From Bacteroidota bacterium (GTDB lineage: Bacteria; Bacteroidota; Bacteroidia; Bacteroidales; JAGONC01): DNA of 64,000 nucleotides. The number at the start of each line of letters is the position of its first letter. Position 1 is the first letter of the stretch. Location of the stretch: NCBI GenBank assembly GCA_026391695.1, contig JAPLDP010000084.1, forward strand, positions 1-64,000, in the 5' to 3' direction. The position numbers and the translations under genes are program-made. Of this stretch, positions 1 through 27,132 are shown in pieces. The notes below the pieces were generated by a model. It saw nothing but the letters and a program-made list of their open reading frames with translations, made no database searches and was not told the DNA's origin.

Positions 1-242
1 TGAATCCTGTTATTCAGGTCAGCACCAACATCTTTTGCTTCGATGAAGCCAATGGGGATGCCTTTCTTTGTAATGATATAATCAGGTGCTCCGCACTCAA
101 TCCGGGAAGGTTCATTGGTTGCTGCCACACCGGGAAGCAAACTTTCGAGAAGGTTTCGAAGGTCAGGCCGGTAACTATGCTCCGTTGATATGCCGGATTT
201 GTATAGTTGGTTGACTTTTTGCAGGTATTCCTGAACGGTCAT
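1..242 (-). CDS. N-terminal fragment of a restriction/methylase-type protein with a PD-(D/E)xK-like motif (cut by window edge)
   Basis: The reverse strand from an ATG at 240-242 encodes 80 residues with no stop before the window edge. The fragment starts MTVQEYLQKV and carries a PD...EAK arrangement (P53-D54, then E68-A69-K70), the pattern of a PD-(D/E)xK nuclease core. The opening resembles the N-terminal nuclease part of large fused N-6 DNA methylase/restriction proteins (type IIG or ISP-like); that is from memory of the family. The methylase and specificity regions would lie to the left of this window, so the full architecture and function cannot be confirmed. If correct it is a defence gene close to the hicBA pair. 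An alternative is a stand-alone nuclease-like protein. Confidence 0.6.
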   Translation of the reverse strand, partial: MTVQEYLQKVNQLYKSGISTEHSYRPDLRNLLESLLPGVAATNEPSRIECGAPDYIITKKGIPIGFIEAKDVGADLNNRI

Positions 243-742
243 TTTGAAACTTATTAGCCAATAAATTTAAGGTTTTTTCCCGAGATAACAGTGCGGGGAT
301 ATTATGGGTTAAATAATATTTTTATGCGCACTCGTAGTAATTATCAGTTATTTTTTTATTTATGTACTTTTCTTTGTCTTAATACAAAGAAAAGTACCAA
401 AAGAAAGATCAAGGCTGGACTTCTCGGCGACCCACTCCTTGAATATCCAATATCGAACATTCGAAATAGAAGTTGAATTGGAAAGCGATGTCGAAGTAGA
501 ATTGATTTTTGAAGTGTCTTGTCCTAAAATAGGGCTACACCCATATCTGACATCGAACATCACTCAATCGACAATCGCCCAATCATATTGGGTGCCCCGC
601 CTGCAAACCCTAAGGCCTTTAAAAGGACACCGCCTCATAAAAATCCCCAGCTGGCGCGCGTTTCCGAACGCGTGCCTGGTATCAGCGCGTTTGAAACGCG
701 CAATTCTTTAGCACGCGTCACAGAGGCGCGCTAGCATTGGGG
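243..742. other. 500-base gap without a gene, mostly hairpin repeats
   Basis: The first ~100 bases are AT-rich and unremarkable. From about 350 onward the region is the left copy of the composite repeat described separately. Short open frames here (291-476, 439-711) read through hairpins and repeats, look like nothing known and are not called as genes. Confidence 0.6.
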
Positions 743-747
743 CTAAA
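360..747. repeat. Left copy of composite hairpin repeat flanking hicBA
   Basis: This copy shares three blocks in the same order and orientation with 1629-1948: a 14-bp perfect hairpin (arms 364-377 and 384-397, 6-nt loop), a 42-base identical block (424-465, matching 1692-1733) and a 53-base identical block (593-645, matching 1862-1914). It ends with a GC-rich palindromic section: GCGCGTTT/AAACGCGC around 686-702, a second small hairpin at 657-671, and outer arms CCCCAGCTGGCGCGC near 645-659 and GCGCGCTAGCATTGGGG at 727-743. No coding signal is convincing. Confidence 0.75.
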
Positions 748-976
748 TATTATCGATTATTTTATAAAATTCTCTTATACTGATATTTAAATACCTTAAA
801 TGCTGTCTAATAATAAATGCAGGAACAGGATCAATATGAGTTTGAAGAGTTAATGGGCGTTTTAAATCTGATCTTGAATAGTGTTGATGCCCATCGGTAG
901 TTCGATAACATTTGCACTCACAAAATTCAAGAAACCTCAAATATTTTCTCAGAGAAATATTATCAATCTTTGCCAT
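743..976 (-). CDS. hicA: HicA-like toxin
   Basis: A 77-residue protein resembling HicA mRNA interferases, small dsRBD-fold ribonucleases that cleave mRNA when free of their HicB partner. Visible features are GHQHY (residues 29-33), which would hold the catalytic His region, followed by a basic beta-strand segment (SRSDLKRPLTLQTH) and a helix RQHLRYLNIS matching the family's C-terminal helix. It is longer than compact HicA proteins (about 60 residues) and lacks the usual early glycine-rich loop, so divergence is possible. Its ATG (974-976) overlaps the hicB stop by one base (TAATG), implying translational coupling. The gene order is antitoxin then toxin. The 3' end touches the left composite repeat. 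Confidence 0.65.
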   Translation of the reverse strand: MAKIDNISLRKYLRFLEFCECKCYRTTDGHQHYSRSDLKRPLTLQTHIDPVPAFIIRQHLRYLNISIREFYKIIDNI

Positions 977-1362
977 TACATAACGGGCAATGCAACACGC
1001 TCATTTATTCTGGAAAATTCTTTTTCCCTTATAATATCCTTAAGATAAGATTTATCTCTAAGAAGCTGATCAAGAAAGGGTTGATTATAAATGGGGTTAG
1101 GTTGATGTTTAACAATTGTCCATCCAAGCCTCTTTAATTCATCATTTAAAGTTTTTTTATTAGTAGTATACCTTAGAAACTCTTTAAGAGCGATATTAAA
1201 TGAATCTCTTGCTTCTTGATCGGTATTACCATATCCAGTGATATCTAATGTAGGAGAATAAACAAAACAAATATCATTCTCTTTGAATGTGATAAGAGCC
1301 AATACAACGTTAATCTTATTTTTAGGCCCAAGATATCCGGCTTTAAATTTTAATTTACCCAT
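976..1362 (-). CDS. hicB: HicB-like antitoxin
   Basis: A 128-residue protein whose N-terminal half matches the partial RNase H fold of HicB antitoxins: a strand ending ICFVYSPTLDITGYG, then TDQEARDSFNIALKEFL, the usual 'G.g.T..EA..n...al..fl' pattern. The C-terminal ~45 residues are basic and charged and could be a DNA-binding or toxin-binding tail; no clear helix-turn-helix or ribbon-helix-helix motif was recognised. HicB proteins neutralise HicA and usually repress their own promoter. The stop codon overlaps the hicA start. Upstream lies a near-consensus Bacteroidetes promoter with a dyad over its -33 element. A lone HicB-family domain protein is possible, but the neighbour makes the TA reading stronger. 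Confidence 0.7.
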   Translation of the reverse strand: MGKLKFKAGYLGPKNKINVVLALITFKENDICFVYSPTLDITGYGNTDQEARDSFNIALKEFLRYTTNKKTLNDELKRLGWTIVKHQPNPIYNQPFLDQLLRDKSYLKDIIREKEFSRINERVALPVM

Positions 1363-1407
1363 TGCCCTATTAGCTTGTATAAAAAATTTAAGCGTCTGAT
1401 TAGAATG

Positions 1408-1437
1408 CCAAAATTATAAATTCCTCTAAATGTACAA
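1408..1437 (-). promoter_or_regulatory. hicBA promoter with overlapping dyad
   Basis: On the minus strand TTTG (1434-1437), an 18-base gap and TAATTTTG (1408-1415) match the Bacteroidetes TTTG/TAnnTTTG promoter, about 45 bases before the hicB ATG. An inverted repeat AAATGT-N4-ACATTT (1427-1442) covers the -33 element and could be the HicB operator. The promoter is read from sequence; the operator is inference. Confidence 0.5.
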
Positions 1438-1480
1438 ACATTTAACGCATATTAATCAAAAAAAGTTCAAGGAGGCTAAT

Positions 1481-1600
1481 TACTATTTTGATGCGCCAGG
1501 TATATTATTTTGCAGAACTGAATTCGAATAGATTTAATTTTTTTGTTGTTAGGTTTTCTGGTATGTTATAATGCGAATAGAGGTGATGTTCACTGAAAAA
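1481..1600. repeat. Dispersed repeat, copy 1 (related to 26857-26985)
   Basis: About 120 bases align without large gaps to 26857-26985. Shared landmarks in order are TATTTTGATG, GCCAGGTA, ACTGAAT, AGGTTTTCTGGTATGTT, and TGATGTTCA followed by an A-rich tail. There is no open frame in either copy. Confidence 0.6.
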
Positions 1601-1628
1601 TAGAAGTGGCTTGAGAATGTTTTTTTAT

Positions 1629-1948
1629 TGATGTACTTTTCTTTTGTGTGTCCAAAAGAAAAGTACGAAAAGAAAAAGACAGCCTGGGTTTTCGGCGACC
1701 CACTCCTTGAATATCCAATATCGAACATTCGAAGTAGATGGCGAAATAATGTTTGAGGTTAAAGACATTAAACAAAAGCCTCTGCTATGCAGTGTCTACT
1801 TTTACATCTAAATTGCCATATTGACTAATTGACTAATTTTCAAATTCTCAAATTAATTCCCTGCCCCGCCTGCAAACCCTAAGGCCTTTAAAAGGACACC
1901 GCCTCATAAAAATCGCTCGCGTCACAGACACGCAATAGCATTGGTATT
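1629..1948. repeat. Right copy of composite hairpin repeat flanking hicBA
   Basis: It is in direct orientation relative to 360-747. The hairpin arms are 1633-1646 and 1653-1666; both arms differ from the left copy while pairing is kept. The identical blocks are 1692-1733 and 1862-1914. The GC-rich palindromic tail is about 66 bases shorter than in the left copy, having lost the internal GCGCGTTT/AAACGCGC hairpins. Confidence 0.75.
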
Positions 1949-2097: not shown

Positions 2098-3603
2098 ATG
2101 ATTAAAAAAATACTTGTTGCCAACAGGGGCGAAATAGCTGTCAGGGTGATGAGATCATGCAGGGAGATGGGAATACGCTCGGTAGCTGTTTTCTCAGAGG
2201 CAGATAGAAAATCTTTACACATCAGATATGCAGACGAAGCCTTTTTCATCGGGCCCTCACCTTCCTCTGAAAGTTACCTCGTTATAGATAAAATCATTGA
2301 CGCAGCAAAAAAAAGCGGTGCAGATGCCATTCATCCGGGATATGGATTCCTCTCGGAGAACGCCCGCTTCTCAGAGCGATGTAAACAAGAGGGTATCAAG
2401 TTCATCGGTCCTTCAGCTTATTCAATTGCTACAATGGGCGATAAACTCACAGCCCGTAAAACCATCATGGCTGCCGGAATACCTGTTGTCCCTGGGTCAA
2501 AAGGGAAAATTGATGACGACGATTCAGCCGTTATAACAGCCATGGAATTAGGACTGCCGGTCATGATAAAGGCATCATCCGGTGGCGGTGGCAAAGGCAT
2601 GCGTCTGGTTTACAAAAAAGAAGATATCGTCAGCGCCATGCGTGGTGCACGCTCCGAAGCTCTCTCTGCCTTTGGTGACGATACAATCTATATTGAAAAA
2701 TATATCGCTTCACCCCATCATATCGAATTTCAGATACTTGCCGACAGCTTTGGACATACCATTCACCTGTTTGAACGTGAATGCTCAATACAGCGCCGCC
2801 ATCAGAAAGTCATTGAAGAAACACCCTCGCCGGTCATTACACCGGAGATACGGGAAATAATGGGGCAACATGCTGTGGCTGCGGCTAAAGCCGTCAATTA
2901 TGAAGGAGCCGGTACCATTGAATTTATCGTCGATGACCATCTGAATTACTATTTTCTCGAAATGAATACACGGCTACAGGTAGAACATCCTATCACTGAG
3001 CGTGTTGTCGGCGTTGATCTGGTCAAGGAACAAATCCGTATTGCCAACGGTGAGCCACTTGCCCTGAAACAGGATAAACTGCAACAATTTGGCCATGCTA
3101 TTGAATGCAGGATATATGCCGAAGATCCTGACAATGGTTTCATGCCAAGCCCGGGTGTCGTCAAACATATCACTGAACCACTCGGACTGGACGTTAGAAA
3201 TGACAGCTATATGTATGAAGGTTACGAAATACCCTTGTATTACGATCCCCTCATTTCAAAACTTATTGTCTGGGGAAGGACACGCGACGAGGCTATAAAC
3301 AGGATGAAGCGTGCGCTCTATTCTTACAAGATCTCCGGAGTAAAGACAACCATTAAATTCCTTATGAAAATTTTGGATATTCCTGCATTCCGGCAAGGAG
3401 TTTATAATACACATTTTATTGAAGATCACAAAAAAGAGATCATGGAAACCGAACGTTGCGATGCTTTATGCGAGGATGTGGCAATAATCGCAACATATAT
3501 GGATTATATTTCGAACCTGAATAAAAATTCTGCAAACCGCATGGCTCCGGTCAGGTCTAACTGGAAGGAATTTGGCAGAAGAAAGGGCATCCAGCGTTCA
3601 TAA
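2098..3603 (+). CDS. accC: Biotin carboxylase subunit of acyl-CoA carboxylase
   Basis: A 501-residue biotin carboxylase: it uses ATP and bicarbonate to carboxylate biotin on the carrier protein encoded just downstream. Visible are the N-terminal ILVANRGEIAVRV signature, the ATP-grasp glycine loop GGGGKGM (162-168), the ATP-binding FLEMNTRLQVEHP segment near residue 290, and the C-terminal biotin carboxylase domain. About 50 residues extend past the usual ~450-residue fold, a tail common in acyl-CoA carboxylase forms and too short to carry a biotinyl domain, which is on the next gene. Start is the ATG at 2098. With the downstream BCCP and carboxyltransferase it forms a complete propionyl/acetyl-CoA-type carboxylase. 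Substrate cannot be decided from sequence alone. Confidence 0.93.
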   Translation: MIKKILVANRGEIAVRVMRSCREMGIRSVAVFSEADRKSLHIRYADEAFFIGPSPSSESYLVIDKIIDAAKKSGADAIHPGYGFLSENARFSERCKQEGIKFIGPSAYSIATMGDKLTARKTIMAAGIPVVPGSKGKIDDDDSAVITAMELGLPVMIKASSGGGGKGMRLVYKKEDIVSAMRGARSEALSAFGDDTIYIEKYIASPHHIEFQILADSFGHTIHLFERECSIQRRHQKVIEETPSPVITPEIREIMGQHAVAAAKAVNYEGAGTIEFIVDDHLNYYFLEMNTRLQVEHPITERVVGVDLVKEQIRIANGEPLALKQDKLQQFGHAIECRIYAEDPDNGFMPSPGVVKHITEPLGLDVRNDSYMYEGYEIPLYYDPLISKLIVWGRTRDEAINRMKRALYSYKISGVKTTIKFLMKILDIPAFRQGVYNTHFIEDHKKEIMETERCDALCEDVAIIATYMDYISNLNKNSANRMAPVRSNWKEFGRRKGIQRS

Positions 3604-26789: not shown

Positions 26790-26856
26790 TTATTTTCAGC
26801 GACACCTTTCCGCCAGGAAACGCTGAACTCCATATTACTAAACCGTTTACTTGCTA

Positions 26857-26985
26857 AATAATATTTTGATGTGCCAGGTAAATTGATTTGCCGGACTGAA
26901 TGCGGAAAGACATTAATTTTTTATTGCCAGGTTTTCTGGTATGTTTTAATACAAAAAGGGTTGATGTTCATTGAGAAAGAGAAAT
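26857..26985. repeat. Dispersed repeat, copy 2 (related to 1481-1600)
   Basis: Aligns over ~125 bases with 1481-1600 in the same orientation, sharing AGGTTTTCTGGTATGTT exactly and several shorter blocks. It lies in an intergenic region 25 kb from copy 1. No open frame. Confidence 0.6.
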
Positions 26986-27132
26986 AATCTAAAAAAGTAT
27001 GCATCTATGAAACAAATCTTTAATTATAGAACTCTTCAATCTTTAACACATCAAAATATTTTTTAACCTTTTTACTTTATAAATTGTTATATTCAGAAGT
27101 TCAAATACCGGTTATGATATCGTGAATATTAC

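Follow-up and report, generated by a model that had tools for sequence, protein, structure and literature searches.

Truncated ISL3/ISAon1-type MITEs on either side of a hicBA toxin-antitoxin pair: most likely independent insertions upstream of accC

The first base of the window analysed here (64,000 nucleotides) is also the first base of contig C84, in a genome of 3.63 Mb that is divided between 95 contigs. Near this end a hicB-hicA pair lies between two direct repeats, here called copies 1 and 2, upstream of accC (Table 1). The stop codon of hicB overlaps the start codon of hicA. The first-pass annotation had stated that the repeats enclose no gene other than this pair, and that a restriction-type protein is found just outside them. 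Both statements hold; the protein belongs to a type IIG restriction-methylation enzyme, of which the contig end leaves only the N-terminus.

Table 1. Positions in the window of the genes and repeats discussed in the text
Feature	Position	Strand	Remarks
Type IIG restriction-methylation enzyme, N-terminus, cut by contig end	3..242	-	PADLOC PDLC03610, E=3.4e-23
Octamer ATATTATG	299..306	+	Adjoins left terminal repeat of copy 1; also on contig C86, with no MITE after it
Copy 1, left part of MITE	307..645	+	Terminal repeat 307-329, hairpin 355-406, blocks 424-465 and 593-645
GC-rich second dispersed repeat, ~97-99 bp, palindromic	646..742	+	Ends CCCCA/TTGGGG; abuts hicA stop codon
hicA, 77-aa mRNA-interferase-type toxin	743..976	-	Predicted fold, and homologues adjoining hicB in other genomes
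hicB, 128-aa antitoxin	976..1362	-	Overlaps hicA start; homologues 27-51% identity
Copy 2, left part of MITE	1474..1914	+	Terminal repeat 1474-1496, hairpin 1618-1681, blocks 1692-1733 and 1862-1914
GC-rich repeat remnant, 30 bp	1915..1944	+	25/30 identity to 711-740; joined at same MITE base as copy 1
accC-type biotin carboxylase, fixed right neighbour	2098..3603	+	Orthologues 72-76% identity in four family relatives
Complete 217-bp MITE, same family	26852..27068	+	Both terminal repeats; flanking octamers agree at 6/8 bases

The identification of the pair as a HicBA toxin-antitoxin system is well supported by predicted structure and by homology. The model of HicA (pLDDT 94.1) has a dsRBD-like fold matching the HicA structures 6g26, 4c26 and 4p78; the best PDB matches are HicA toxins and 1whz, with probabilities of 0.85-1.00 and weak Foldseek E-values (0.09-0.26). 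The catalytic histidine, H30, is invariant. The top fold match of HicB is the HicB3 chain of the HicA3-HicB3 complex (probability 0.95, again with a weak E-value); no sequence relative of HicB was found in the PDB, and a first scan of the genome collection with HicB alone as query gave no match. In most of the homologous loci hicB and hicA are adjacent. The small HicA fold, conserved His30, upstream position of hicB and overlapping reading frames are as in type II HicBA systems, from which the present pair differs in that neither protein matches Pfam or NCBIfam above the cut-offs, a criterion of detection rather than of biology. A distant hicA homologue (L061) does pass PF07927. By family, the genes would be expected to function as an ordinary HicB antitoxin and HicA toxin. 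We note that a related hicBA pair in another genome (L060, G030:C63) lies directly beside apparent CRISPR cas1 and cas2 genes.

The two repeats share a 42-base block (424-465 and 1692-1733) and a 53-base block (593-645 and 1862-1914), identical and in the same order and orientation, just as the first-pass annotation had placed them. The cores of these blocks occur in only two places in the window, where shuffled sequences would give 0. The extents first given for the composite elements (360-747 and 1629-1948) require correction. The repeats are real, but those boundaries missed the terminal inverted repeats at which copies 1 and 2 begin, i.e. at 307 and 1474, and they took in segments at 646-742 and 1915-1944 that belong to a second repeat family. 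Each bracketing repeat is the left part of a miniature inverted-repeat transposable element (MITE). The left terminal repeats of the two copies point the same way and neither copy has a right one, so that they are fragments and not intact members of the family. Their left arms are of different subtypes and thus the copies are not simply one duplicated block; their middles also differ. A string resembling the terminal repeat at the hicA stop codon (738-752) was judged a coincidence, as the hicA of a relative (L058) ends in a similar pattern of residues.

MITE repeats were mapped across the genome by sequence searches. Complete copies are 217-714 bp in length with terminal inverted repeats of ~26 bp (GGSTAAATAMTATTTTGATGYGC... 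and GGSTAAATAMTATTTTGATGYGCYRG), and the family has no coding capacity. A 17-base core of the terminal repeat is found at 27 places in the genome, whereas the reversed-pattern control gave counts of 0 and 1. There are ~27 copies or fragments, nearly all of them solitary. The family therefore occurs singly and with no link to cargo, which the first-pass annotation had named, at hundreds of copies, as evidence against a cassette; here the copies are in the tens. The search that it proposed for other genes bracketed by the repeat found none except a tandem gene duplication on contig C16. The repeats were also considered as an RNA gene, but no Rfam family was matched at its gathering score, Flavo-1 scoring 21.7 bits where 42 is needed.

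Perfect target duplications of 8 bp flank a complete element on contig C57 (CTTTTCTT), another at C88:111669-111948 (CAACTCTT) and an element in a related genome (L166; AAATTTAT). Over 19 candidate elements the agreement between flanking octamers exceeded that in all 20,000 shuffles. Young complete copies have the 8-bp duplication, and several other copies have no recognisable duplication.

Mapping of modules through the genome reveals that the family is a mosaic of left hairpin, variable middle, right block and further hairpins. As the shortest complete element is without hairpins or right block, these modules look to be later accretions, and the 217-bp element in the window may be the ancestral short form that preceded the hairpins. 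In a search of 393 genomes, the present one alone proved to have the right block. The stem of the left hairpin (C85:16097-16179 and C70:63105-63152) carries matched changes on both arms, giving GTAC, GCCG and GTCA stems. The inner unit running from hairpin to right block is sometimes found with no terminal repeats, and it may for this reason be a separate nested element.

The ends of the MITE, with one mismatch allowed, turn up in 27 of the 393 genomes searched in the order, and the control in none. In one of these (G286, L147:1501-3010) matching 26-bp ends enclose an insertion sequence of 1,510 bp that contains two overlapping open reading frames with a match to the ISL3 transposase domain (PF01610, E=8.9e-38). 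Its N-terminal region scores 100 bits with the ISAon1_upstream model (cut-off 55), while the transposase body scores 210 bits with ISAon1_downstr, below the cut-off of 250. No target duplication is seen around this element, and for both reasons its assignment to the exact ISAon1 subgroup is approximate. Since its ends are shared with the MITE, an ISL3-family (ISAon1-type) transposase acting in trans is the likely mover of the family. No match to the ISL3 transposase (PF01610) was found in the present genome (G000), the fragmented assembly of which could hide one in a gap. Subject to such gaps, the MITE family may now be immobile here. This bears on its present mobility and not on its descent.

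The family thus resembles the ISL3-mobilised MITEs of the ISAon1 group in having terminal inverted repeats that start with GG, 8-bp duplications, a non-coding interior and ends shared with the ISL3 insertion sequence of a relative. It differs in its interior, a mosaic in which hairpin and palindrome modules seem to have accreted, and in that a transposase was not found in its host.

The GC-rich repeat (CCCCAGCTGGCGCGCG...CTAGCATTGGGG) has copies elsewhere on contigs C88 (two), C86, C25, C87, C79, C22, C31 and C28. MITE left arms run directly into it in copies 1 and 2 and, in a similar fusion, on C87. Copies 1 and 2 leave the MITE at the same base, after ...CATAAAAATC, where copy 1 enters a complete GC-rich repeat and copy 2 the 30-bp remnant of one. 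This joint is found only in these two of the 17 copies of the right block. A derived joint that is common to both copies and absent from the others examined indicates that recombination has probably shaped the site, hinting at a past local exchange.

The end of contig C86 carries a near-duplicate of window positions 1-306 (98% identity; 300/306). The homology stops exactly at 306/307, where copy 1 begins with its terminal repeat, and is followed on C86 by 38 unrelated bases, after which it resumes within the GC-rich repeat (window 646-739). C86 thus offers a naturally occurring version of the site that lacks copy 1. Comparison of the two sequences suggests that the MITE of copy 1 was inserted at this site, and that its right end was then lost together with the 38 bases. 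As this left-flank near-duplicate has the GC-rich repeat with no MITE, it seems that the fusion in copy 1 arose at that same site. The N-termini of the type IIG enzyme in the window (3-242) and on C86 (85479-85793) are near-identical (98% in DNA over 306 bp) and both lie at contig ends; these two may represent either a duplicated locus or variants from different strains. A diverged copy at C47:3322-7270 has 63% amino acid identity and is interrupted by stops.

We consider it most probable (at roughly 0.8) that two truncated ISL3/ISAon1-type MITEs inserted independently upstream of accC, with a chromosomal hicBA operon, present once in the genome, between them. Moved in trans by an ISL3-type transposase, the MITEs would reach new sites and generate 8-bp duplications there, which are seen for complete copies and presumed for the truncated copies 1 and 2. 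These two would have inserted in the intergenic DNA so as to flank hicBA, which they would not have carried, and both would later have lost their right ends, each now being fused to the GC-rich palindromic repeat. The right block and joint common to copies 1 and 2 may owe their uniformity to local recombination or gene conversion between the two. For ~27 loci in 3.63 Mb, a simulation that takes uniform placement as an approximation predicts 0.23 neighbouring pairs at this spacing and gives a probability of 0.21 for at least one. A single adjacent pair in a family of 27 copies is thus no surprise, and it is most likely by chance that the repeats bracket hicBA. Besides this pair, a close one is found just on C16, within a tandem duplication of secreted-protein-like genes that copied the repeat together with the genes. 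Against independent insertion stands the joint shared by copies 1 and 2, which two wholly independent histories would be unlikely to produce.

The joint, present on both flanks, is also consistent with hicBA being a cassette that homologous recombination between the direct repeats brought in or removed, as first suggested, and so are their identical 42- and 53-base blocks. Four family relatives have no hicBA upstream of accC, yet all are of other genera that lack the right block altogether, so that the missing genes say nothing about the repeats. We regard the cassette as unlikely. There is just one copy of hicB in the genome, no other cargo is bracketed apart from the C16 duplication, and the left arms of the copies differ in subtype. 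Moreover, no MITE repeats surround the 18 loci with hicB homologues in other Bacteroidota (a count in which some places appear twice), and hicBA as a recurrent cargo was rejected on this ground. What survives of the proposed entry or exit by recombination is the origin of the repeats in mobile DNA and probable recombination at the site; the cassette itself is not supported, given repeats that mostly stand alone, the missing right terminal repeats and ISL3 transposase, and the repeat-free homologous loci. Recombination between the identical blocks of 42 and 53 bases might, in principle, delete hicBA. A single MITE/GC-repeat unit might instead have been duplicated locally with hicBA caught between the copies, in keeping with the same fusion point on both sides and the identical 53-bp block. 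The subtype differences in left arms and middles, and the indication from C86 that the fusion formed at the copy 1 site, make this quite improbable.

Pairs of Tn3-derived miniature elements (TIMEs) form composites that move the intervening DNA (PMC4133298), and the elements here are likewise miniature, non-autonomous, transposon-derived and paired around other DNA. A composite transposon moving hicBA in this way is nonetheless contradicted by the structure of the locus, and we give it almost no weight. With co-oriented left repeats and no right terminal repeat in either copy, hicBA does not lie between inverted ends and the pair cannot transpose as a cassette; copy 2 in particular lacks the outer right end that a composite would have. 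The present pair differs from TIMEs also in transposase family and in the length of the duplication, and the genome gave no ISL3 transposase. A very doubtful further idea is that MITE left arm and GC-rich repeat together form a recurrent hybrid element, the palindrome replacing the lost right end and promoting local gene exchange; if true, this could affect for example hicBA and the restriction genes.

Independent insertion makes the finding most likely a largely ordinary one, i.e. fragments of ISL3-type MITEs adjoining a chromosomal toxin-antitoxin operon. The presence of two repeats around a toxin-antitoxin pair does not, taken alone, argue for a mobile cassette. In place of a possible cassette there is now a defined MITE family, with terminal repeats, target duplication and a likely transposase, which should allow other hairpin-rich repeats, those of related Bacteroidales genomes, to be annotated correctly.

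The GC-rich repeat resembles the REP repeats associated with RAYT (PMC3733652) in being an extragenic palindrome beside the 3′ end of a gene, and differs from them in that no adjoining Y1 transposase gene is seen and that its ends resemble terminal inverted repeats (CCCCA/TGGGG). A Y1 (RAYT) transposase was rejected as mover of the MITE; only one of the five Y1 genes in the genome is near a similar hairpin, and the target duplications do not fit the mechanism. Three of the five lie inside obvious palindrome arrays. These RAYT-like genes (L064, L065 and L066, on contigs C27, C34 and C32) are each set amid their own arrays, which include a GTCCCTACGGGAC type and a CCCACGACTTTAGTCGTGGG type, and the gene on C34 contains a stop.
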